Assembly: GCA_029204225.1 (NCBI GenBank)
Contig: CM055095.1
Location: forward strand, 41,535,719 to 41,599,718
From: Diphasiastrum complanatum
Lineage: Eukaryota > Streptophyta > Lycopodiopsida > Lycopodiales > Lycopodiaceae
Direction of reading: 5' to 3'
DNA: 64,000 nt
In this document: positions 4,901 through 64,000 of the stretch, piece after piece
How positions within the stretch are numbered: position 1 is the stretch's first letter
Layout: the number at the start of each line of letters is the position of its first letter
Position numbers and translations under genes: made by a program
The notes under the pieces: model-generated
The model's database searches: none
Told to the model about the DNA's origin: nothing
Seen by the model: only the letters and a program-made list of their open reading frames with translations

Positions 4901-5228
4901 TGTGAAATTGTATAGACCAGATTGACCAAGAAATAAAGGCTATCCAGTCTTCCATTCTTTTTTGTATGAAACGTATTTTGAATATTAGAGCTTATTACTC
5001 TAACTGATGAATTATGAGTGCAGGTATCATTACCTGAAGACAAGAAATGCAACTGTAGAGCAATGCTAACAGTTTAATATGCAGGTTCTAGAAATAGAAT
5101 CTAATGATGAACCATTTGACGGTATGGCTTCTAACCTTTTCCTAAGGGTATGTGCAGGTACTAAGAAGAGTACCTGAAGAAAGAATCCAAAGAAGCTTCT
5201 TAAAGCTTAAAGACGGTACCTGAAGAAG

Positions 5229-5607
5229 CATTAGGGGAGTTTTGAGCTCCAAAAAGACCCTTTAAGAATTCGTGCAAGATGTCTTTTATATTATTAAAAT
5301 ATTATGACACTAATATTTTTGACTTGCCATAAGTTTTTAATCATATCTCAGAAGTATGTCATGTAAGAAATCATTGGAAAGTCCTTGTTGAGCACTTTCC
5401 AATGTGCCAAACTTCGCTAAATTTGGACTTACCACTAAAAAGTTATGCCATTTTTAGTGTGGAATCAAAATGTGGACTCAAAAAGTTACGTTACGTAAAA
5501 TTCAAATTTGACTGTTTCGATTGGTCCATGTGTAAGAAAAATTTAAGAAAAAAATATAAAAAGAATATTTACAAAGGGTTTTTTTTGGATTTAGAACTCC
5601 TCTAATG
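5229..5607 (+). mobile_element. MITE-like TIR element, copy 1
   Basis: 379-bp non-coding element bounded by inverted ends CATTAGGGGAGTT and AACTCCTCTAATG. An inverted copy about 85% alike (visual estimate) lies at 24019-24395, so the boundaries are defined by two unrelated contexts. There is no coding capacity, so it would need a transposase in trans. No obvious target-site duplication flanks it. Confidence 0.85.
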
Positions 5608-36650: not shown

Positions 36651-36929
36651 GGAAGATTAGTCTAGGTGATAGGAATAACTATCAGTGACTTAAGTATGAA
36701 AATCTAACACTAAATTATAGAACAAGAAGACAATTACTCTATCAGCTAGTAGAGTCTTGTTACTGTGGAAGCTTATCAGGCTACAAAAATTGAAAAATGA
36801 AATTGTAGAAACTATTTTAATTAAAGTTCAATCATACTTGGATGCAAATGTGATATAAGGTGCATGTGATGTATCTGGAATTAGTAAAAATGCTTATTTT
36901 ACTTTTTTTAGAATAGTTTTTTTTTCCAA

Positions 36930-38148
36930 GTGATGGTGAAGAAAATTTATCTTCCACGTCCATATCGGGTAAGATTAGCAAAAAATTATTATAATGACGG
37001 AGTGTTCAAAGTAGTTGGCCAACCACTTCATATAACCGAATTATACAAATCAGAATATGGTGAGTTCAATTACAACGCTTGCAATAATATTTTCTTTGAT
37101 ATTGAAAATGTTCTAAAATATATTATTCGATTGACGAACATCAAGTAAATGGAAAGATCATTATTGTAATAAAATTGGATGAATTTGAAATCATCAAGGA
37201 TCAAAAGTTGGAACGAGTGAGTGTCACTTTGATGAACAAAATTTCAGATACAGATGATCGAACGTTTAGTGTTCAATCGGAAAATCACATATGGTGGTTG
37301 GTGGCATTCCAGGTATACCTTTCAATTTTCATTTAGAATATCGTTATTAACAATTCATACCTTGCTAGTTTTTATTGACATGTCATGCATTACTTGCTTT
37401 TCTACAGGTCTTGAAAGAGGACCATAAAATACTTTCATGGATATTTTCAAGAAATTATGGCAAGATTATAAAGAGACATTTGGAGGGTGAGAAATTTACA
37501 GTCAAAAATCATTGAAGTTTTCAAATTCAATGGCACCTTGCAGGGGATTTGAAAACATTAAAATGTATGTATAATGTCTCTCAATAAGCCATCAATTGGA
37601 GGTGCTAAAGCAAGAAGATTCTTATCCAATCACACATGCAAAGAATCAAGTGTCAGATATGAAATTTGGAGAGAAATTGTTCAAGCCACACAAACACTGG
37701 AAGGAAGTAATCGAGTGGAAAAGGGACAAGTGTGGAACAACTTAGACAAACTCATAGGTGTTATCAGGAAAGAAAACCTATCATCAGAAGATATGAGGAC
37801 TTTGCAAAATCATTGCACCACATTTGTAAAATCTGTACATGATTGTTGGGAAAAAAACAATGGTACTCATTACATGGTGCTAATCTATATCTTTATCTGG
37901 TACTTTTCTCATTCAGACTTATATTTTTTTCTATTGATGTAACTAATCAAAACTATTGTTTGCAGCACATCCTTCTTCATCATGCAACTTATTTTGCAAA
38001 GGAATATGGAAGCTTAAGTATCTGGTCATCACAAGGCATGGAAAAATCTCATTGGCAAGTCAGTGGTTTTATAGAAGAGCACAATTTAGATATCAAGCTA
38101 AAAATTCGCCAAGTGTTACGATTTTTTGAAAGGCATTCAAATTCATAA
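36930..38148 (+). pseudogene. Transposase-like gene of element copy A
   Basis: Plus-strand gene with two clear introns (37313-37407 and 37877-37975, both GT-AG). Exon pieces read SVTLMNKISDTDDRTFSVQS, WWLVAFQ joined to VLKEDHKILSWIF, then WHLAGDLKTLKCMYNVS, then a domain ending DCWEKNNGTHYM joined to HILLHHATYFAKEYGSLSIW and SSQGMEKSHWQ. The GDLKxL block, a spaced HYMHILLHH and the (S/G)QGxEK motif are what I remember from large uncharacterised transposase-like proteins of diverse eukaryotes; the exact superfamily is not identified. It is damaged: a stop at 37513-37515, a frameshift near 37575 and mixed frames upstream of 37200. It ends 50 bp from the convergent gene on the other strand. Confidence 0.55.
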
Positions 38149-38197
38149 CAAAAGAGAGATCCTTGTAATATATCAAAAAAATATTACAAAAAATTGT

Positions 38198-39746
38198 TTA
38201 ATTATCATCATCATCCTCTTCAAGATTCAGACGGATGGTATTGTCATGAAGGAATAATTTCCTTTCATATGGATCCAAAAATTCTAAATTTTTTCTTTTG
38301 TTCATATCAATGTAATCCGAATAAAGGGCCATTGCAGATGATCTTTTTGTAGTCTCATTGAGAGTATAACCCAATATTTTAATAGCCAAATCTCTTTTCA
38401 CAAAAATTATTTTTTATGTTCCTCTTGTGTACTTATGGCCTCCTAAACAAACTGATAATGATTTGATGGCCATAATGACAGTGGTTGCATATGGATTAAA
38501 AGATGAATGATATATAAAAATCTCATTATTTTGAAAGTTTTTCAAATAATGAGATAGGGACACATCCTTTCTCCCGGCTGATACACCTCGGACGCCTCAA
38601 TGTCTCATACCAAAGGCATCTATTTCAATAGCATCCTGTAAATGAGTAAAGAAAATAAATTTAGAATGATACATAACACTGCAAACTCATACTTTAACAC
38701 AGTGTTTGAAATAAGAAAACTGAACAATATCAATACCAATATAATATCTACGTACCAGATCATAATCATCGTATTCAACGACATTTGCTCTGCTAATGTC
38801 ATGTCCTCCAATGGCCTCTACATTTTCGAAGGGGATATATCTAGGCCTTGGGGGATATTTTTTTTGGAATTTCAAGAATTCCTCCTCTGTAGGCAAAGTT
38901 TTTTCGTAGGCTTTAGATTTTTCAATCATGGCCTCCAAGGCCTCATTGCCAGATTTTCAATTGCCATCTTTATCATAATCTATCTCACTTTCAAAGTCAT
39001 CATATGTGTAATCAACAATGTCAAAAAATTCTGATAAATTTTGTGCAAAAATCGAGAGGATTTCATCCTCTCTCAAATTCAAAACATCTTCTATATCATT
39101 AAATGAAATGTAACTTTCATTATTTATAAAATATAAGGGAACATCGAGAAGAATTAATTGATGAAAAGGAGATGTAGATGGAAGAGAATCAGAGAGGATT
39201 ATAGGAACGAGGGAGAGTTTTTTGATAATTTGAAGCCATAGATGCTTCAGCTTCAACCCCTATATCAGTATCTGCATCAACTACATCAACTAGAGCAGAT
39301 GCAGATGTTTCAATCAAAGGAACAGTTGAAGATTCAACAGACTCATCATCTGGAATTTCAGCAGATATGTAAAAGACAAAAGCCATTCCTTTGATTAGAA
39401 GGAGACATATTCTTTTGTGGATACCACAATATATATTTCTTTTGAAATGGTCATACAAGTTAGAGTACTTTCTATTGTGTTTATGCTTAGAGGATGGTTG
39501 GGAATGCACAAGGTCTAAAAAATGAACGAAACAAAAACTATCTATATTCTGAACAGGAGTACTAATAATCTAAGAAAAAATATCAAGATAAGAAATTAAA
39601 TTATAATGATTCTCATAAACTAGCTTATCGATATCGAAGGGAGCACAAAAAATACTCAAAAAATACTCTAATTTTTCAGATGGAATGTCACTAGCATTCA
39701 AAAAATTCAGAAGTTTGTTATCTGAGGACATGGAGGAATTAGCCAT
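38198..39746 (-). pseudogene. Element gene 2, copy A (unknown protein with acidic tail)
   Basis: Minus-strand gene starting MANSSMSSDNKLLNFLNAS at 39746. Further pieces are HNRKYSNLYDHFKRNIYCGI, GMAFVFYISAEIPDDESVES, then, after a frameshift near 39230, YISFNDIEDVLNLREDEILS, TLPTEEEFLKFQKKYPPRPR and IGGHDISRANVVEYDDYDL. A 120-bp GT-AG intron (38755-38636) follows, then a last exon with SLSVCLGGHKYTRGT and ending LNLEEDDDDN with a stop at 38198. In-frame stops near 39570, 38936, 38600 and 38410 show decay. Function unknown. Homologous to 60698-61288 in copy B, where it is again head to head with the histone-protease gene. Confidence 0.65.
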
Positions 39747-41467
39747 ATTGAACTTGTTATTGGTTCAACGCGACTGAATGATTTTGGTCGAGGACTGAAC
39801 AATAGTGCCCGTGTTGATCCGATATTGTTAGGACGAGACTAAAATTTTCCGTGAGCACATGTTAGAAGAGGCTTATATTGCTTCAGCACGTCTGAATGAA
39901 TCCGACCATGCACTATATGTGAAGGCGCATGTCGATTCGATATCGCGAGAAAGAAAGAAAATAAAATGACGAGGGAGTTCCGAATAAAAGATCACGGAAT
40001 CGAAATAAAAGTGGTACCCATATTTATAGCCTATTCCTGTTGATCACAGCCATACATTTGTCAAATAATGAATTGAGGAGCACGAATCATCATTAGCCTT
40101 GACCCTAAAATTTGTACATGTGCTGGAATACATTATATAGTCTATCACTAGCCTCATCGAATCATCGTTAAACAAATAATAAACAAATGTTAAATGGACA
40201 TTATTGAAAAACGTGTACGAGGGCAATTATTACAGTCTCTTGCCCTATTTAAGCACCGTAAAGACAGAATTTTTCCTTTTGAGATAATGTTCATTCAGAA
40301 TATTTTCATAAGGTGGAGCATTTTGACATGGCTGATATCGATTCCACGCAAAAAGACAAGTGCTTCAGAGGAACAAATCAAATGGGCGCGCATTGATTCA
40401 ATACTCCCATATGGCGAATCAGATATCGGATCAGCGCGCCCGTCCCAAAAAAAAAAAATTTCAACTTGAACTACGCGCGTTGATTCGCTATTGGAATCCA
40501 TTATGAATCATCAAAACTTGCTTCGGGAGACTCTTCATACATCCAAAGCTTAAAAAAATCTGTCGAAGCAAGCTTTGATGGTTCATAATGCGTTCCAATA
40601 TATTTTCAGTGCATCTCATATATCAGGTCAGCGCGCTTGGTAGAAGAAAGTTATTTTTCACTTGGACTGCGCGCATCGAATCGCTATTGCAGGGAAAAAA
40701 AGATTTTTGGAATTGTCAAAATTATTGGACCCCATTATGCATGATCAAGGCTTGATTCGGTAGACTCTTCATACTATCCAAAGATATGCAAAATCTATCG
40801 AGTCAAGCTCTGGTCATTCATATTCCGTGCAATATTGGTTCAGCGTGGGAGAATAGCCCCTCTAGTTTACACATGCAGTATATGCGCGTCGATTTGTTAT
40901 TGGGTGAAATAATGGTCGTTCAATCATTATAATCTCCAAAATTATAATGATTGGATATAAAAAAAGGTTAGATATTTATAGCTTAACCTTGTCAATTTCA
41001 ACAATAAATTGTAGATGTGACCATACTTTTCTAGAATTAATTGTAGATGTGACCATACTTTTGTAGAAATTATTTGTGGTCGTTATTATTGACTAAGCAT
41101 TTTGATGAAAGATGGATATTAAGTTTGATTTGATTGACAAGCCTCTGAATATCTTGAAGTAATCATCAGCGTAATCCGAGACTCGGACATCCAAACCACC
41201 ACGTATGCAATCATTTTGGATTTTATCTATATATATAGATGGACGATGCTGAAATTTTTTTGCTTAAAGTTCGTATCGTTCTCTACTGCCATGCGGTATC
41301 GATTCAACGAGTCCGAAGCAACCTACCTACATTTCGCTTTTACTCGCGTGCACCCATCCGCTACCAGGCATCGGTTTGGTTAAGTTCAGGTATCAGTTCG
41401 ACGCGCTCGACCTGAATTCTGATCTTGAGTTCTCCTTCTTCACGTGCTGATCCGATATTGGATACTA
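39747..41467. promoter_or_regulatory. Divergent promoter region of element copy A with motif cluster
   Basis: Separates gene 2 (minus) from the histone-protease gene (plus). TATA-like boxes: TATAAATA on the minus strand near 40022-40029, about 280 bp from the minus ATG, and CTATATATATAGATGG near 41226-41241, about 230 bp from the plus ATG. At least eight copies of a motif close to GCGCGTYGATTCGATATYG or its inverse occur (39808, 39925, 40384, 40428, 40473, 40621, 40668, 40883, 41441). No ORF of note. Confidence 0.6.
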
Positions 41468-42421
41468 ATGATGTGGACTAAGCAAATCGCACGAGTCCAC
41501 CCTGGTGGAATTCCAATCATAGGAGGGGGTCAGGGAAATGCACCACCACCGCCTCGCTCACCACCACCTCCTCCTAGGCCAAGGGGCAGACGAAGAGACC
41601 CACCCTAGGTCAAGGATATTTGGAAGCTACAGAAGACCAATAATCTTCTGATTCTGAAAGCTCACATACAGAGATCCATCAGACAAGTTACAAGAAGAAT
41701 TTTCCTCTCCTAATAAATCTCCTCCTCCTTCAAAATCTCAGTCTCCTCCTACCCCCAAAAATATTAGTTTCCCACCTCCTGTTTTAGGAAATGATGTAGA
41801 TGATTTTGTAAATATAAAGGCAAAATAAATTTTGAATGACAATTCTTTTTGTGGTTTATTTGTATTACTTCCTTCACCCCCTGCACTTGCCTTTGTAAAT
41901 ATTCCTCAATATGTACAGTATGACCATTGTTAAATACATATCTTAAAGCTTTAGGTCCTCGATACAGTTTTAAGATGCCGAAGACCAATGCTGGTTTTCT
42001 CCTTTCTAAATTAGATACTAGTGAATTAGAAAGTAGGGATAAAATGCTAGGGGACAATGTAGGAGGTGGGTCAATTCAGTACTGGATGGAGTTTTTCCAG
42101 ACCCCATTGTTTATAGATGTTGGCATTGTTTTCTCTTCAATTCATGGCTGCATTTGATTTCCCTGATTTCAAAAGTCTGCACGATGATATGCTCCAATAC
42201 GTCAGACTGGGGACTCCAATCCTCGTGCTCCCATACATAACAAAGTAAGGGTTTTTTTCAGATTTTATTAAATTGAATTTTTCATATGAATTTTGATTTC
42301 ACATTGGTTCTCATAAATTTATTGTTTTTTGATTGTAGTGATCATTGGAGCTTATATGTATTGTCCTTATATGTCAATGATGAGGGTTTGTGTTATCCAG
42401 TTTGTTTAAAGATGAACTCTA

Positions 42422-42512
<91 letters not shown>

Positions 42513-43108
42513 TGCCAGGAGCCATATCCAGAAAATACTGGAACTCTTTTCAGTGCCACATGCAATAGCATATAGGAAGCTGAAAATGATTGATGTAGAG
42601 GTGAAAATTTATCAATATCGGTTCGATGCGCCCTTGTAGTTATTGTTTCATTTCTTTTCATATCGTGCGTGCTGATCTGATATTCAAACAATATTTTTTG
42701 GATATCGTGCGCACTTGTTTCCGTTGTAGATTTTATTATAACCTCCTACACGTTGATCCGATATTTCTTAATGTTAAAATTTTGTTACTAACTTTCGTTT
42801 ATAGTGGATACTACAGTCCTCCCAACAGGTTGATTCTGTCAATTGTGGTTGGTATACGATATGCAATGCCAAACACTTTTTCATTTGGCCTGCACTACAA
42901 GATGAACTTCCTAATCTGGGAGAGGTAATCTTCAATTAATAACATTTAGTTGTGTTTTTGTTTTTTTTTCATAATCAAATTCCTAATAATGAATCTTTGA
43001 TTAATAACATTTAACTGTGTTTTTGTTTTTTTTCAGTTTAAATGCCCGAAGGTCTCCCCAATGAAGATAATGCACTTTAGGCAGGAGACCATAAGGCTTG
43101 TAATCTAA
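41468..43108 (+). pseudogene. Decayed CENH3-like/Ulp1 protease fusion gene, copy A
   Basis: Homologue of the intact gene at 62133-63842. It opens MMWTKQIARV (copy B MARTKQIAHL), then a Pro/Arg-rich tail, VKDIWKLQKTNNLLILKAHI and QRSIRQVTRRIF, that is, the N-terminal part of the histone fold up to the second helix. A TAG (about 41607) replaces the Trp codon of copy B. The rest of the fold is deleted. Protease exons: exon 1 ends VLPYIT at 42244; exon 2 42339-42600 (DHWSLYVLSL, CLKMNSITHTH); exon 3 42817-42924 (SSQQVDSVNCGWYTICNAKH); exon 4 from 43037 (FKCPKVSPM) to a TAA at 43106. Intron positions and the 108-bp exon 3 match copy B. A (CA)43 tract lies in exon 2, so the copy is likely dead. Confidence 0.8.
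42423..42508. repeat. (CA)43 microsatellite inside a protease exon
   Basis: 86 bp of perfect CA repeat within exon 2 of the copy A histone-protease pseudogene. Read in frame it gives an HTHTHT run directly after KMNSIT; copy B has KMNSLKCTH at that point. The exon is 69 bp (23 codons) longer than in copy B, so the frame is kept. Confidence 0.97.
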
Positions 43109-43612
43109 AATTCATATCCAGTTGCAGTGGTAGAGTGTTCTCCACCCAAGCTACTTCCAACAGGAGAAATGGATTTAGAGATCATAGATAGTTGATACTA
43201 ATAAAAAGTTGGTCTCACTTGATGTGGATGAGACACATGTACAAATTTTTTTTATAGAAATATATTTACAATTTTCTATGGTTGTTCTCACTTGTTTGTT
43301 TTCTTGTTATTAATTCTGGTTATTATTCATTCATTTTCAATTTCTACGGTTTTCCAACATGTTTGTTTTTCATAGCCTTGGTCTGCCTTGCTTTTACCAT
43401 GGTTTTTTTTGGATAAGTTCAGAAAGATGATTTGATCAAATCTTTGCCACAACCAATCCAAACATGTGACATAAGTTCACTTAGATTTATTGCAACAAAG
43501 CTTTGATCAGATCATATTCTGAACATATCCAAATATGCCAAGACAAGGACAATACAAACCAAGGCAATGAAAACAAAAAATACAACCGATATATCCGAGA
43601 CTTTAACAAGGG

Positions 43613-43800
43613 AACGCGTCGATTCGATATCTGATTGTAGTGGTCACTGGAGTTCAAGTGACCGAAGATCTCCCCAATGGAGATAATGCATTTCCTGTAG
43701 AAGACAATGAATCTTGTTATCAAAAACTCATATTATCCAGTTGCAATTACATTGTGATTTGCACCATGGAAATGGAGATCATAGAAATGAAAGAGCCTCA
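43613..43800 (+). repeat. Partial duplication of protease gene ends
   Basis: GATTGTAGTGGTCACTGGAG at 43632-43651 resembles the exon 2 acceptor and start (42331-42350). It is joined to a copy of the exon 4 region: CGAAGATCTCCCCAATG at 43662 matches CGAAGGTCTCCCCAATG at 43047, and ATCCAGTTGCA and GAGATCATAGA recur in order. So a shortened second copy of the gene's 3' part lies 0.6 kb downstream of the first. Confidence 0.65.
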
Positions 43801-44028
43801 TAGAAAAAGTGGTTCATATATTTTCAAAAATAATGTATACAAAAAATTGTATTACATAATACAAAATTCCATTGTTCATAATCTATGGATCTTCAATTTT
43901 GATGGATGTTCCAATATCTTTGCATTTTATATGCTCTTCATGCCTTACTTTTACTAGCACAAGAGAAATTGTTTTAGTTAAGTTTTTGAAACTGATTCAC
44001 TTAGAAAGACAAAAAAAAAAGAATATTT

Positions 44029-45222
44029 TCATATGGCATAATGTACCTTCACACCATTCAATCGAAATTGATAGTACTGAGGTAGATCGAATTGCAACAT
44101 ATCTAGCTCTAATCGAATGTGATTGAGACACCAATCTTCCTCGACCTCAACCATTGCAAGAATGTTGTCATTTCTTTTCACTGTTATCTGAAGTTGCTTT
44201 TGAGGGTTTATACCAAAATCTTGATTGGCTCTCAAACATTTTTGTATTTAATCCATCTTCTATAATACAACGGCAAAATGAGCATTTGTTTTTCGATGTG
44301 ATATCTAAATGTCATTGATGAGTAACATACTCTACACTCGACTTGCTGATTTTGTTTTGTATCCCAACCATCATCCAACAACTCGGTGATTATTTCAGCA
44401 CTCAAGTCCTTACAAATAAACATTGTTTTCGTTCTCTGAACATTGCATTTGGAAAAAAAATCAACAAAAATAGTAAAAGGTAGATACCAACTTAATCTAT
44501 TATTCTTTGATCCAATGCTCAATTTTAATATACTCTGAATATCAATATATAGCCTAGATAAAAAACTTTCTGAAATTGCTGCATCAGGAAAAATCCATTC
44601 CTCACTCAAAAAATCTGATAGAGGATATGGCTCTAATCTACCAACTAAACCATTTTTATCAGGAAAATAGGTGTGTTCATAAAAGAAAACTCTTGACTCT
44701 AAAAGTGATTATGGAGAACGACCTTTATATTTTAAAATACCGATACCCGAATGTATGACATCGATTATTCCTACAATCGATTGAACTGTTTGCCATTCAA
44801 CGAAATGTGATGGATACAAATCTACAAAACCAACAAAAACATCACAAGAAAAATATAATTTAAAGAAAATGCTAACTCTAAAGAAATTAAATCTGAAAAC
44901 TTACAATTGCATTTTCTTCTATCATTTGGATTCAAATCATGAATGTTGAGCTCATTGTGAAGATAAGCATGCTGAACTAAAACTTCCGTGATAGATTGAC
45001 CGGCAGGTGATACTTTGAAATCCATTATCTGCCTTTCCAAGAGCTTCTATATATGTTATCCGATCTTTTTCTTTTTCGAAATGAGCCTTTTGCAGAGGGA
45101 TGCATCAAGATCCATTGATATTTTCGATATATTCTTGGTATCCATTGATCTTTTGCATTTTTTTCATTGCAAATATTGATTGCATCAATGGTTCCTCTTG
45201 GTCTTCGATTATGTGTAGCCAT
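44029..45222 (-). pseudogene. Element gene 4, copy A (unknown, possible ubiquitin-like fold)
   Basis: Minus-strand spliced gene. Start MATHNRRPRGTIDAINICNE at 45222, then a frameshift to SPAGQSITEVLVQHAYLHNE and LNPNDRRKCNC. A GT-AG intron (about 44904-44820) leads to DLYPSHFVEWQTVQSIVGII, VGRLEPYPLSDFLSEEWIFP, LSWYLPFTIFVDFFSKCNV and LDDGWDTKQNQQVECRVC. The last exon has KQLQITVKRNDNILAMVEVE, EDWCLNHIRLELDMLQFDLP and QYYQFRLNGVK before a GTACAT donor. The final part resembles a beta-grasp (ubiquitin or doublecortin-like) pattern; this is only a visual judgement. No family recognised. It lies convergent to the histone-protease gene. Confidence 0.5.
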
Positions 45223-47988
45223 TAGTTGAAAATACGTGTACGCAAGCTGAGAACGGAGACAATGTAGAGATTGAGAGATAAACCTAAAAATGAGAATCCA
45301 AAATAAGAGATAGAATGTAGAAAATGAGAAGTATACTTATGAATGACAAGAAGTTCCTAAACTATTAGGATAAGTTAACTACAATTGACGTCAAATCAAC
45401 CTCGAGTGTACAATGACGGGTAGCATAAGAGTATTCGGGCGGTAACTGTGGTCCAATCACAATTGTTTGTTTTGCCCGGTGAGATATTTGAAAATCACAA
45501 AAATTTGGCCGGGAATTTCCGTCCGTCAACCACTGTTACAGTTCGTCACATATGGACACCATTCATTGGGACACATAAGCGTTGAAAGTGTGCAAAGTCA
45601 AAAACAGCATCTTGACAAAGAGCCCATTTTGAGTTCTAATATCTCCTAATGATTTTGAATAATTAGTTTACTATTTTAAGTTTTATTAAGCTTTTGATCA
45701 GCTTCATTCATTTTTGCCGTTCTGTGATATTATTTTATATAGTTTAATCTTTTTGTATGGTCATGGGTTTTCCCATTATTAAAATCATGGATAATAATTA
45801 TTATTAAAAGGCCAATGTACTACAAAGCAATTGGAAGTAAACATTACAACTTGCAAAGGGCCTATTAATAGGCACATGTGATTATTAGTTGAATCACAAT
45901 TTAATGCATTGGAAATGACTAATGCAATGCTTTGCAAAGATGAAAAAAGTCAAAATGGCAACTTGAAAAGGGAGATTGGTCTCAACCCCATAAAAGGAAA
46001 TGGACGTGTTGCATTTAGATGCTGTTTTTTTGTTCTCTCAATATATCGAAGTCTCTTGTCACTCTTTGTAAAAAGCTAACTTGCTGAAGTTCTCTCTTCT
46101 TCTCAAGAGTATGTTGAGGCTCTCTTTTGTTCTCAAGAGGGGCTGTGGATTCATTTGATCTCAAGAGTGTGATGAGTCTGTTTTGTTTTCAAGGCTGCCA
46201 TGCTGAGCTTTTAAAAAATGCTCCTCATATGGTCTCTTGTTAAGTGATAGCAGTTCTTAGTGCTTCTTCCTGATTCACAGATGGTACTCTTTTACAACTG
46301 AACCATTTTTCTGATCAGCTGTTCTTAGTTTGGTGTGAGTAATTGCATCTTTTTTTTGAAAGAATGTGAGAGATACTTTGAACAGAGAGCAGCAGCAAAG
46401 AAACCCCCTGTCCCGATGGAGTAACTCGTGGGAGGCCTTGGTGAATGTGAAGTGGAGCCTCCATGTGCTCCTTGAGAATGATGATGGTTCAAACAATTGG
46501 TGCCCCCCACATGCGCGGATCGGCAACTTAGCTCTCTCTCCCCATTGAGCTCAACCTGAGCGCAAAGGGACATTTTTGGACAAAATATTTTTGTTCTCGT
46601 CACTGGTTTTCTGTTTAGAAGGATCAAAGTATGAATGTAGCCCTCACTTAGGGAAATCACTCGTAGTTAAACAATGGATAGATGTTTTGTGAATGTGACT
46701 GGCATTTTTATCCCATGTGCTTAATTAATGTGTGCTAATCGCTAATAGTAGATGCATTGGTAGTAAGGCTACACAAGTAGTATGTAATCACGTTAAATCT
46801 TGTGTGAATTTGGTAACTAGAGTAAATGTCGTCTAGTTCGTTGACTTATACAAGTTTTGTATCTCTCCTCTTGGAATATAGAGAGAGGGCTAATGAGAAC
46901 CCGATGAGGCGGAATATCCTCCCGGGCCTAGGAAATTGAACACAATATTTCTGTTCTGATGACACACCTAGAGCACAATCCGTAGTGTGTTGTTGGAATA
47001 TACAGACATTGTGGATTCACGGGCCCTTGGAACCTAGGTCCACTCACTAGCATGAGCACGCTAGTTTAAGAGGAAATTGGGAAAAAATCGAAAAATCTTA
47101 ATCTTGAAAACCACAAGACCGATCAAAGATATGGTAATTGGAAGACTCCATTATCACTAGTCCCAACACGACACCATTATGACCTTCATCACCCACCCAT
47201 GTGGACACTTTACGTAATGTCATTAACTTTGATATTAAACGTCTGCCTCGATCCGATTCCATCCAGGGGATAAAAAAATCACATTTTGATGGAATTGACA
47301 TTGGGTCGAAAAATAGGCTTGGGTCGGAATAATTTGATCCTGAATTTTTCGATCCTCCGCTAAAATTTTGAGCCTCCATATTTTTGTGTAGGTTTTTTAG
47401 AATAAGTATGAACAGATTTCAGGATGCTCATTACCTAATGGAATTGGGCTTGAGCATGTATTCCAACATGGTAGATGTAGTATATGCAAGCCAGGGTGAG
47501 GACGAACTATTGGGCATGAACGAGCTATCGGGCCTCAGCTACTCGGGTGTGACTCGTTTTTAAACTATCACGATCCACCGCCGCCATGCAACGTTAACAT
47601 AAATGTACTTAAATGGATGCTTAACTTAAACTCAGCTAATCAATCTTGTAATTTAATCCAGCATAATATATGTATTGGATCATAGTCATTTACATAGACA
47701 TACACAGAGAAAATCCTAAACGCAACACTCAGTGAGGTGTGTATTAAGGAAGCAAGATAGATCTAGTGATAGATAGTTCGTTTCGTGAGAAGAGAACACC
47801 TCTATCATGCCGACGCGCTGATCTAGGAAATAATCAACGCTCAAGAAAGAAACCCTGTTGTAGACTTGATTCTGATAATATAGACGAGTATATCTTTTTC
47901 TGCTCAATGCGCAATCTGTGAATGTTGTGATGCTTGTTCAGTTTTACTAGTAGCTATATTTCCACTGTCATTAGATATTATCTGTTGT
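45223..47988. other. Non-coding region right of element copy A
   Basis: No gene recognised. Around 46075-46200 a CTCTCTTTTGTTCTCAAGAG phrase recurs three or four times (46094, 46118, 46155), possibly a transcribed LTR leader: CCCATAAAAGG at 45988-45998 is a TATA-like box. At 46890-47000 there are generic plant-TE-like sequences without coding capacity. Confidence 0.5.
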
Positions 47989-59699: not shown

Positions 59700-60697
59700 A
59701 GGCAAACACCTTCAAGGCTCACTTATGATGAGAAAGGTAAGCAAGTTGTTGGTGGAACAAACTATGCCTTCCTAACCTCTTTTGATGAACCTACATGTGG
59801 ACATGAGGTAAGGCAAAAAGAGGAGTGGATCCAAGCAATGGACCTTGAGTATCAAGCTCTTATGAAGAACAACACATGGAGATTGGCGGAACTTCCAGAG
59901 GATAAGAAAGCTATTGGACGCAAGTGGATCTTAAAGGTGAAGAAAAGCCAAGATGGAAATCAACAGACATAAAGCAAGGTTGGTGGCCAAGGGATATCAA
60001 GAACATGGTATTGACTATGATGAGACCTTTGCACCCATGGCAAAGATGGTAAGCATTTGGGTCATCATCTCTCTTGCTACTCTATTTGGTTGGGATCTAT
60101 GGCAATTGGATATCATGACTAATGCATTCTTGAATGGTGATCTTGAGGACAAAATTTACATGGAGCAATTCAAGGGCTACATCTCACATGAAAAGCCAAA
60201 TCATATTTGTTATTGCAAAAGAGTTTGTATGGTCTTAAGAAAGCTCCAAGGAGTTGATTCGGACTTTGCTGGAGATCAAATGGATAGGAAGTCCATTAGT
60301 GCACATTTTATTTTCATAGGTGATGGAGCTATCTCTTGGATGTCAAAGAAACAAGCTACAATCTCATTGTCAACTAGTGAGGCCAAGTATAAAGCACTTA
60401 CATCTTGTGCAAAGGAGATGCTATGGATCAAGAGGATGGTAAGTGATCTTCACTTGTTGGATTTTTCAGAGAGTCCAATCATCTTTTGTGACAACATTTC
60501 AGCCCAAAGATTGGCAAGCAATCCTATCTTTCATTCAAGGAGCAAGCATATTGAGGTAGCATATCATTTTGTGAGGAAACAAGTCATGGCAAAGGAGGTG
60601 GAGCTTCAACATGTTTCTTCAAAAGAATGTGTGGCTGATATCTTCACCAAAGCACTTGAATTAGACTTGTTTACAAATCATAGAACATCACTTGGTG
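59700..60697 (+). pseudogene. Copia-6 pol with internal deletion (RT start fused to RNase H)
   Basis: Starts in one frame with EWIQAMDLEYQALMKNNTWR, LAELPEDKKAIGRKWILKVK. A frameshift near 59953 leads to NRHKARLVAKGYQEHGIDYD, ETFAPMAKMVS and TNAFLNGDLEDKIYMEQFKG. At about 60255 the RT catalytic core is missing: sequence jumps to DSDFAGDQMDRKSISAHFIF, then ISWMSKKQATISLSTSEAKY, CDNISAQRLASNPIFHSRSK and DIFTKALELDLFTNHRTSLG. It stops at 60697 against element copy B, without polypurine tract or LTR. Close to Copia-5 in sequence. Confidence 0.92.
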
Positions 60698-61288
60698 TCA
60701 GGGTTCTGCTCTGGTCAATCTCGCTCGCGGTAGATAACAGAGAACGAGCCATGGCAGGATCATATTGTTTAGCTTGCCTGGCCTCCTCTACATCTCCTAA
60801 AATCTCATCAATAATGGAAACCTCTGAAGCCACACGAGTGGTAAGGGCAGACAAACCAATCATGGACGACCCAGAAGATTCTGCCTCATCAGGAATAAGA
60901 GCTGATAAGAAAAACACGAAGGCCATACCCTCCTCAATGAAGCGACATACTCGATTGTGTTCCTCACAGGGTATGACATGTTTAAACAGATCAATAAGTT
61001 TGATAAACTTATGATCATGCCTTTGCTTGGCACTTGGCTGAGCATGAGCCAAATCTGTGAAATGCCAAATCTCAGGCCGTCCATCAGAAGGGTACCCTGT
61101 TGCAAGCACTCATAAAAATCCTTGTACAATTTAGGAAAAATTTATCTGTGCTTACTAACAAATCTCTCTATGTCAGGCTGAAAATCGAAATAGGACAAAA
61201 AATGGGCCTGTCTGTCGCTAACCTCAACATCAACTAGGAAAGAACTAAGAGCTTTATCATAGATCAAACTAGCAGACGAGGAGGCCAT
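60698..61288 (-). pseudogene. Element gene 2, copy B (truncated)
   Basis: Minus-strand gene starting MASSSASLIYDKALSSFLVD at 61288. A TAA near 61144 and a frameshift near 61110 interrupt it. It resumes with GYPSDGRPEIWHFTDLAHAQ, PSAKQRHDHKFIKLIDLFKH and EEGMAFVFFLSALIPDEAES. These match copy A (HNRKYSNLYDHFKR, KGMAFVFYISAEIPDDES) in order and spacing. It ends at the Copia-6 junction at 60697/60698, so more than half of the gene is missing. Function unknown. Confidence 0.7.
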
Positions 61289-62132
61289 ATCAATATGATG
61301 CACCAGTTAGCAAGGGGACATAAACGAGGTAAGCGCGGGCGCGTGATGGCGATATGCACTGTACGCGAATCCGAATATCGGGACCACGTGCCAGGGAATC
61401 AGTGCAACTATGGATGTCTTTGCTGGGCGCATGGTAGCGATATTGTACAAACAGATATGGAGCGGGCCAGTGAATTGGACTCAATATGCGAAACTAAATT
61501 ACAGAAATGACACTCATATATATAGTCTAATACAGGGCATCTGAACCGTACACGTGTCTCAGTAATGTGCAGTCAAAATTGCCATGTGTGGAAACGACGG
61601 CGAAATCATTTTGAATGACACATGTACACTTCGGATTCTGACATGCGTCCTCGCACGTGCATGCCAACTGTACTATCGTATGCCCCAATCGTCTTCTGAC
61701 GCGTGTGTGGTCCAGATGTTGCCACGTGTCCTCGCACGTGCATGCCAGCCGTCTGATTGTACGAACCGCTGATATCCTAACACGTGACGGATGCGTGTGA
61801 CCACACATGTGACCACACATGCGGGGAGTGGAGGTGTTACATCGAACGTGCGAATATGATGAGACATTCTACAGGTATAAAAGGACGTTTTCGGGTCTTA
61901 TTTTAGTTTCTTAATTCTTCATTCTCTGGCTCTCCTTAGTTTCCTTCGCTCACTTCCACTCCCCGTTAGATGCATATCTCTACCACGTGCCAAAGGACCC
62001 ACATACCAGTATAGCTGGCCTGCCCGCACGTCGTGGCGATACGCCATTGCTCATATCGCCATCATGCACCTCCCATGTCGAATACCTGCTTTCCCTGCTC
62101 GTTGGTGCGTCATATCGATATCCTACCCTGCA
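61289..62132. promoter_or_regulatory. Divergent promoter region of element copy B
   Basis: 844 bp between the two ATGs. It holds a plus-strand TATA box (61876-61884), a minus-strand TATATATA-like box at about 61517-61525, several CACGTG (G-box) cores (61386, 61655, 61723, 61734, 61983), a 20-bp direct repeat (GTCCTCGCACGTGCATGCCA at 61647 and 61728) and about six copies of a motif close to GCGTGATGGCGATATG (61339, 61366, 61425, 62024, 62049 inverted, 62104). Confidence 0.65.
61876..61884 (+). promoter_or_regulatory. TATA box of the copy B histone-protease gene
   Basis: TATAAAAGG about 250 bp upstream of the ATG at 62133. The spacing leaves room for a 5' UTR of about 220 bases. Confidence 0.65.
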
Positions 62133-63842
62133 ATGGCCCGTACCAAGCAGATAGCCCACCTTACCACATTTACCCCACCTCCTCGCCCTCCTCTACAAAG
62201 GACAGTGAGCACTGGTAGGAAAGTAGGTCAGCCCAGAAGACCATGGTTAAGGGATATCAGGAGACTTCAGAGGACCATGAATCTTCTGATTCCCCGTGCT
62301 CCTTTCTACAGGTCTGTGAGACTGGTAACAAGGTCCCTCTCACATGATGTTTGGTGGAACATAACAGCGCTGGAAGCCCTCCCTACTGCCTATGAGGACT
62401 TCCAAGTCAAATTCTTTGAGGACTCCACGCTTTGTACAGTGCACGCTAAGAGGGTTACCTTCATGCCTCAGGACATGCATCTTGTCATGAGGCTGAGGAG
62501 TGCATACGATCAAGTCTTTAAAAGTGGCTTCACTTCTAGGACACCACCTACAGAGAGAGGTCTTGTTCCTCAACGAAGAAGGAAGCAGACCAAGCCCACC
62601 AGGCCTGCCAAGCAAAGGGTGGTACTCAGCGAGTCACCATCCCCCCCTCACATCTCTCATCCTTTGGTTGGACCATCACACCAATCTGCAGTGCTTTCTT
62701 CTCCTCCCACCACCCCTAACTATTCAAGTAGTTTCTCTTCCATTCCCTCCATTCCATCCCACAATAACGAGGATATGAACTCGACTGTAGATAAAATAAT
62801 ATCGGATCTAGATTTAAGTTTAATAGGTGGATTTTATAAGGATCTTTGTGTAAGATTTCTTGTTGATCCCAAAGATTCATTTTTGGATTTTGAGAGGTAT
62901 ATAATTTTTGATGAGTATGTTGCCAAAGAAATTGACAAGCTAGGAGGTCAGTTTTCTTTTTGTCTAAGTTCAATCAATTATATAAATCACATAAATAAAG
63001 ACTTTTGTGATGCCTTGAAGGAGAAGACCTCAGATATATCAGTTCCAATTGTGGAGGCTGGTTTGATGTATTTTGTAAATAGATGTCAATGCGATGATAC
63101 TAAGGACATTGGAGTTGTGCTGTCCTTTTTTGCACACAACCTTCATAGTCCAACTAAGGCGACGAAGTATCTTCTCCATACAAACTCGGAAACCAAAGTC
63201 TTTATTATTCCATACTGCCAAAAGTAAGTGATTACATAGAATATATTCTAGTAATATTTTTAATAGGTATTGTAATTCTTTTAGTTTAACTAATTATCTC
63301 TTGTCTGCAGTAAGCATTGGAGTATGCATATAATCTCCCTTAGGGAAGATTCAGATGGGATCATTAATCCCATCTGTTTAAAGATGAACTCCTTAAAGTG
63401 TACCCATGCTAAAATGGACGTGATGTACAACATAATGTTGCCATTTTTGCCAAGGCCGGATGGGGCCACTATAAATAGCCAACTGGAGATTGTTGATGCA
63501 GAAGTAAGTATTTCTCATCAAGTATTTGATAGGTAATATGATCTGTTTTTTTCAGAGCACAACTAACCTATTATACATTTTGTGATTGAAGTCAGCTCAG
63601 CAAGAGGATGGACATAGCTGTGGATGGTTCTCCATCCGCAATGTACAGGACTTTTTAGAGTGGTACATCATGCAATCCAGGGCTCCAGATGTACGAATGG
63701 TAAATAGACTAGTGAATGGCCTAACTAAGTTATTTTCGATTTGGTTTTTGATAAGTCAATTGACTCGGTTCTTTTGGATTTGCAGCATAAATGTCAAGCA
63801 TTTTCAATGAATGAGATATATGATATATACAGATGTTGGTGA
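62133..63842 (+). CDS. CENH3-like histone fold fused to a Ulp1-type (C48) cysteine protease, copy B
   Basis: Four exons, 62133-63223, 63311-63503, 63592-63699 and 63786-63842, join in frame (482 codons) across GT-AG introns. Residues 1-6 MARTKQ equal the start of histone H3. Residues 37-122 are an H3-type histone fold: RDIRRLQRTMNLLIP, APFYRSVRLVT, FFEDSTLCTVHAKRVT, MPQD. LLIPxAPF is typical of plant CENH3 rather than H3, but loop 1 has the shorter H3 length. Residues 130-215 are a Pro/Ser/Arg-rich linker. The C-terminal half is a Ulp1/SENP-like desumoylase: His366 in KHWSMHII, Gln432 and Cys438 in QQEDGHSCGWF, spaced six apart as in yeast Ulp1. The expected Asp appears as Asn390 (KMNSL). An alternative last exon (63833-63952) would give a 503-residue protein. 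ATG 62133 is chosen for the MARTKQ start; an in-frame ATG at 62064 exists. The role, perhaps in chromatin or SUMO-based anti-silencing, is inference. Confidence 0.85.
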
Positions 63843-64000
63843 ACTTATTATCTCATGCAACACCCAATCCAGCTGTGGAAACGGGAGGCCAATCAAGTCC
63901 ACAACTGACACTAGTGCAGGGTGGAGATAATCCATACTACTTTGAGCTGTAAATAATAGATTAAATAGAGATATACATTTTTGATGTAATGCCCTGTGAA

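Follow-up and report, generated by a model that had tools for sequence, protein, structure and literature searches.

A 64,000-nucleotide stretch of the genome of Diphasiastrum complanatum, hereafter the window, contains a gene in which a histone of H3 type and a C48 (Ulp1-like) protease domain are encoded in one reading frame. Alignment of its copies shows that this gene belongs to a DNA transposon with four genes that is present in many copies, and comparison between families of such elements shows that selection has maintained the fused first exon in at least three of them. The transposase family of the carrier is predicted to be RAG1/Transib-like. With a probability of roughly one half, the best overall explanation is that the transposon bears a silencing-resistant H3, which would bring a deSUMOylase-like domain into chromatin; the altered H3 and the SUMO-protease-like domain would possibly keep the host from packing the elements into silent chromatin.

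The histone-protease fusion gene

The gene at 62133-63842 (+ strand) has four exons and a single frame of 482 amino acids starting with MARTKQ, and all of its introns are bounded by GT..AG, as had been read in an earlier note made from the letters of the window alone. Alternative splice choices are likewise open, the longest giving 496 aa; introns 1 and 2 as chosen here are backed by a related family, C, which has the same junctions (identical in position and phase, as judged by eye). The union of the two domains in one frame, also claimed in that note, agrees with the Pfam search it called for: Histone (PF00125) matches aa 22-122 with an E-value of 9.5e-21 and 74.7 bits (cut-off 26.4), and Peptidase_C48 (PF02902) matches aa 348-457 with 24.8 bits against a curated cut-off of 20.7. 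While the fusion itself is established, its expression and function are what we infer. The parts of the gene and of the surrounding element copy are as follows.

62133..63223, + strand: exon 1, with H3-like tail and fold, Pro/Ser linker and start of the C48 region (splice reading, Pfam)
62133..62243, + strand: H3-type tail, MARTKQ..., with K4 present and K9 replaced by Leu (family alignment)
62244..62504, + strand: H3 histone fold (Pfam, PDB sequence match, predicted fold)
62505..62777, + strand: Pro/Ser-rich linker (N/S ratio 1.08 among copies)
62778..63223, + strand: conserved region before the C48 core (conservation in families A, A' and C)
63311..63503, + strand: exon 2, carrying the HW and MNS motifs (splice reading, Ulp1 alignment)
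63592..63699, + strand: exon 3, carrying QEDGHSCGW with the C48 Gln and Cys (splice reading, Ulp1 alignment)
63786..63842, + strand: exon 4, its final residues probably frame-shifted in the window copy (comparison with other loci)
60698..64000, no strand assigned: part, inside the window, of a left-truncated element copy (alignment of copies, common right end)
60699..61288, - strand: remnant of gene M, acidic protein (tblastn, 81-96% identity)

Judged by sequence, H3 is the nearest class of the histone part. Its first 136 aa gave 175 distinct matches among PDB sequences at E<=0.001, and the best 60 of these are headed by H3s, with H3.Y at 4.4e-21 and the CENP-A-type cnp1 at 7e-19. A structure prediction of the same 136 aa, another check proposed earlier, gave a model (pLDDT 80) that matches chains of nucleosome structures, as identified by entry titles. 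The earlier note had called the fold CENH3-like on the strength of LLIPxAPF and suggested the capture of a centromeric histone. The motif LIPRAPF is indeed present in element families A (the family of the window copy), B and C, but Planoprotostelium and Brachionus have it in H3-like proteins too, and Kipferlia has LLPRAPF. Moreover, the tail begins with the ARTKQTAR of H3, and loop 1 of the window family has the length found in H3, without the longer loop of CENH3; it is longer in P0025, a D. complanatum protein of family A', and longer by one residue in family C. In a tree of 18 rows, in which CENH3 is represented by two rows other than the host's own, the transposon H3s cluster together (A with P0025, 100/98; with C, 88/84; with B, a weak 50/78) and group with neither CENH3 nor H3. 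The transposon H3s thus form only a weak group of their own, and a CENH3 origin is not shown.

By sequence, the C48 part is matched weakly in the PDB, by two Ulp1-like chains only (E 0.48 and 0.74), whose alignments nevertheless line up its HW and QxxxxxCG. The active-site His, Gln and Cys are present as H366, Q432 and C438 of the family majority (Ulp1 alignment, E 0.74). The usual catalytic Asp was not found in these alignments; an Asn appears to stand in its place, either that of MNS (by eye) or that of INP (HMMER alignment). Families A, A' and C share the MNS motif, and so does an old element remnant elsewhere in the window. Papain-type proteases have Asn at this position of the triad. Removal of SUMO from silencing factors is a possible activity of such a protein.

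The window copy appears slightly decayed rather than fully intact. The claim of an intact gene holds for its open 482-aa frame; however, four extra bases occur near the end of the last exon in 14 of the 29 other loci, so that the last few residues of the window copy are probably frame-shifted, the loop-1 arginine of family A (DVRW) is W in this copy, and the element has lost its left end, together with its transposase gene.

The carrier element and its families

That a DNA transposon carries the fusion gene, as had been suggested, is borne out by an element with inverted ends, four genes and many copies. The histone part has at least 150 scored matches of 70-100% identity, drawn from 6657 first-look candidates, and every contig from C1 to C23 is represented among the 150 listed. 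When 29 additional loci and some longer stretches were aligned, both ends could be placed sharply, the left at CATTAGAGGAGTT... and the right at ...AACTCCTRTAATG; they form imperfect inverted repeats of ~31 bp of the CA..TG type (CATTA...TAATG). Three copies having both ends span about 7.4, 8.4 and 8.9 kb. The gene order is T (+), M (-), H3-C48 (+), N (-), in which T is the transposase and M an acidic protein. The window copy lacks T, is cut at 60698 on the left, and ends on the right beyond the window, at 65832 in window numbering (...AACTCCTATAATG). The anatomy of the gene and its element is very probably as described here.

Several features adjoin individual copies. A copia-type reverse transcriptase fragment (59941-60697, PF07727) directly abuts the truncated left end of the window copy, and a 124-bp direct repeat, 96% identical, lies just past its right end (65833-65956 and 68276-68399 in window numbering; locus L004). 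In locus L047, an inverted element right end (5001-5246) lies ~1 kb to the left of the left end of copy C9, whose own right end was not found in that locus; a rearrangement by paired ends is possible.

A relative of the element's transposase is predicted to fold like RAG1/Transib. In addition to the predicted fold and the CA..TG ends, likenesses to the RAG1L/Transib/CMCT group include the D..D-20-CxxC spacing (in 18 of 22 T homologues a CxxC follows the second D at a distance of 19-20 residues, by strict motif) and the H(3-4)H signature between the second D and the last E: H(4)H and E were found in P0003 and P0004, and the host copy reads HILRHH and GMEKSHW. The element differs from that group in its extra genes M, H3-C48 and N, in that the A1 profile did not match RAG1 among PDB sequences at E<=1, and in that a target-site duplication of 2-5 bp was seen in none of the three copies having both ends. 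Pfam transposase models gave zero matches on the pieces of T or on the 7 of 22 T homologues tested. A Mutator-like element of the VANDAL/KIU type was considered as the carrier and set aside, since no MULE transposase matched the sequences so tested and the predicted fold is RAG1-like; the VANDAL or KDZ affinity suggested earlier is accordingly not shown. RAG1-fold transposons would form a lineage of high copy number in a lycophyte; the tests made revealed no RAG2-type domain in its accessory genes.

The same fusion recurs in other families. In family C (L062), exon 1 encodes 340 aa and again comprises H3, a linker and the pre-C48 region; aligned with the window family over 339 aa, it shows 30.7% identity (E 1.4e-40; E 6e-14 for the part after the histone alone); 119 matches were listed, 28 of them without an in-frame stop, and some of these are near-identical pairs. 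Family A' (L078, L079), with at least 150 scored matches, has the same layout at 44.5% and 47% identity over aa 1-428. P0025, found on contig C14 at 100%, is itself annotated as a 137-aa frame with no fusion, and in L080, from a cluster on C3, the histone is present and a C48 match is absent in 801 bases. This cluster, at ~18.5-21.7 Mb of C3, holds 22 of the 150 listed A' histone matches, 17 of them with a 171-aa frame, and 4 more of the 150 lie at 29.98-30.1 Mb; it may reflect local amplification, possibly in a centromeric or heterochromatic block. Family B (L053-L061, L064, L065, L077) has an H3 with a long poly-proline tail and no C48 in frame; in most copies read, the frame runs only a little past the fold. 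A T homologue (E 1e-86) is situated close to one family B copy, and the adjoining frame was judged by eye to be M-like.

An older element remnant occupies 36790-45336 of the window itself. It preserves the gene order T, M, H3 tail, C48, N in pieces that are 37-71% identical, and has a (CA)n repeat within its C48 part. Alpha-2 and alpha-3 were not seen in its histone.

36790..38067, + strand: fragments of old T, transposase (tblastn, E up to 6e-36)
38753..39467, - strand: old gene M (tblastn, E 4e-38)
41471..41710, + strand: old H3-like tail, alpha-N and alpha-1 (MWTKQIAR...), with an internal stop (tblastn and reading)
42343..42918, + strand: old C48 pieces with HWSLY, KMNS and CGW (tblastn and reading)
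44053..45207, - strand: old gene N (tblastn, E 7e-82)

Selection on the fusion and the lysines of its tail

Within family A, the 24 distinct sequences among the 29 loci outside the window give per-site ratios of nonsynonymous to synonymous change of 0.26 for the fold, 0.81 for the tail, 1.08 for the linker, 0.81 for the pre-C48 region and 0.61 for the C48 part, the catalytic exons having 10 stops among their changes in this within-family comparison. Family C (9 distinct of 10) gives 0.58 for the fold, 1.09 for the tail, 1.20 for the linker and 0.57 for the pre-C48 region. These within-family ratios are biased downward, because the loci were picked by similarity to the histone (A) or to exon 1 (C). 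The comparison between families, made on exon 1 only, is less touched by this bias for A versus A'. Here pS approaches saturation, at 0.78-0.95, for the tail, the fold and the pre-C48 region, against a pN of 0.18-0.34; the linker has a pS of 0.68-0.69 and a pN of 0.43. The corresponding values for A versus C are 0.64-0.88 (pS) and 0.37-0.52 (pN). With synonymous change in exon 1 almost saturated and the protein conserved, the fused exon must have been under selection for a long time.

The family A majority tail reads ARTKQTARLTTFAPPPRPPLQRAVGTGRRVGRPRRPW, and K4 is its single lysine; K9 and the canonical K27 site are absent. K4 is present in 30 of 30 family A loci (the window copy included) and in 9 of 9 distinct family C copies. 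At position 9, 29 of the 30 family A loci have L and one has F; of the 9 distinct family C copies, seven have D there, one E and one N. The majority start of family A is ARTKQTAR, that of the window copy ARTKQIAH, and the family C majority tail begins DRRKQTRRDFF.... K4 is likewise the sole tail lysine of the family C majority, P0025 and the old window remnant; the window copy has K29 in addition. A K4-only tail is not universal, because the single locus of family D (L063) carries K4, K10 and K38, and tail lysines are numerous in family B; what the tails of A, A', C and D have in common is an ARTKQ.AR-like start with K4. Lysine is also scarce in the fold (K:R of 2:12 in A and 3:11 in C). When tail and linker are compared for K against R, the Fisher value is 0.0019 for A and C pooled, and 0.10 and 0.02 singly; for K against all residues it is 0.28 and 0.11, so the contrast is strong only with the two families pooled. 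Taken at face value, such residues would make an H3 able to bear the active K4 mark and unable to bear the K9 and K27 silencing marks.

Known systems and possible roles

Transposons that carry chromatin-acting accessory genes are already known; none that carries a core histone was found described. In a 2026 review of plant gene capture, VANDAL and Kaonashi (KIU) elements resemble the D. complanatum element as plant DNA transposons with a captured Ulp1 domain, and their VANC proteins counter silencing; they differ in being of Mutator type and in that no histone is named, the word 'histone' having 0 occurrences there (PMC13317346). Ginger1 is likewise a DNA transposon carrying an Ulp1 or OTU domain, but its protease is fused to an integrase-type transposase, and 'histone' again has 0 occurrences in that text (PMC2836005). 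TET/JBP and SET genes carried by transposons are further anti-silencing precedents. The fungal DNA transposons with TET/JBP genes include ESTA and Plavaka, and certain of these elements belong to the CMCT clade; as here, the accessory protein acts on chromatin, whereas the TET/JBP enzyme acts on DNA methylation and is not a histone (PMC12730594). H3.Y-type variants share the H3 fold and the ARTKQTAR tail, but have no protease fusion and differ from the transposon H3, which lacks the other tail lysines. Virus-encoded histones, such as those of Marseillevirus and the H4 of bracoviruses, are carried by a parasite genome too, though not by a transposon, and we know of none fused to a protease. Our literature search, judged from listings whose silence is not proof, returned no description of a transposon-borne H3 or of an H3-Ulp1 fusion, in keeping with the earlier remark that no such histone-protease fusion had been described. 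The picture that remains is stronger than the one first drawn, comprising a repeatedly conserved histone-protease fusion and a predicted RAG1-like transposase.

In the anti-silencing mechanism that we propose, the H3 part would pair with host H4 and enter nucleosomes, or would bind H4 and histone chaperones. Its tail would still be methylatable at K4, without K9 and the canonical K27 site, so that nucleosomes holding the transposon H3 could not acquire the principal silencing marks. From its tethered position, the C48 domain would strip SUMO or some similar modifier off chromatin and silencing factors in the vicinity, and both parts jointly would keep the chromatin of the element, or chromatin generally, permissive for expression and transposition. 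We advance this mechanism tentatively, at a little short of an even chance. Known transposon cargo includes enzymes and regulators that act on silencing marks; here it is a core histone itself. It is a more speculative thought that an old plant superfamily of RAG1 fold encodes a core histone, joined in several families to a SUMO-protease-like domain, and writes K4-only nucleosomes that cannot be silenced, a counter-defence that would alter the histone and not its marks. If the protein does enter chromatin, it would permit direct tests of whether loss of K9 and K27 from H3 suffices to escape silencing, and of the role of SUMO in plant transposon silencing.

The predicted RAG1/Transib fold and the ARTKQ.AR-like start with K4 would also suit a cofactor of the transposase, whose H3 part would tether the transposition complex to nucleosomes or present a K4-methylated tail to some partner, and whose C48 part would protect or reset SUMOylated complexes during transposition. 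RAG2-type PHD fingers read K4-methylated H3. Binding of K4-methylated H3 is reported for the PHD of a sea-urchin RAG2L (PMC7204232). We regard such a role as unlikely, PHD and kelch domains not having been found in the tested ORFs of T, M and N (Pfam, E<=1).

A polyprotein, in which the C48 domain cuts the linker and releases a stand-alone histone, would fit the little constraint on the long linker within families (1.08 in A, 1.20 in C) and the family B frame that ends after the fold. Retention of the fusion in three families, and a linker pN that is below pS between families (0.43 versus 0.68), make this improbable. Targeting to centromeres by a captured CENH3 is hardly to be expected either: the LIPRAPF motif, the longer loop 1 of P0025 and family C, and the density of an A' subfamily on one stretch of C3 would favor it, but the motif occurs in other divergent H3s, the window family has no loop-1 insert, the histone stays apart from the two CENH3 rows of the tree, and the 150 listed matches cover every contig from C1 to C23. 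Accidental capture of a passenger with no role, although transposons often capture host genes and many element copies are decayed, is very improbable, as both the histone and the pre-C48 region have pN values far lower than pS when families are compared, and the same fusion is found in three families, with the first two introns shared by A and C.

Outside D. complanatum, an H3-like protein of Ceratopteris richardii (P0001) has an ARTKQTARK tail and the motif LLIPRRPF. Its gene may be mobile as well, because its cluster has 22 member sequences.
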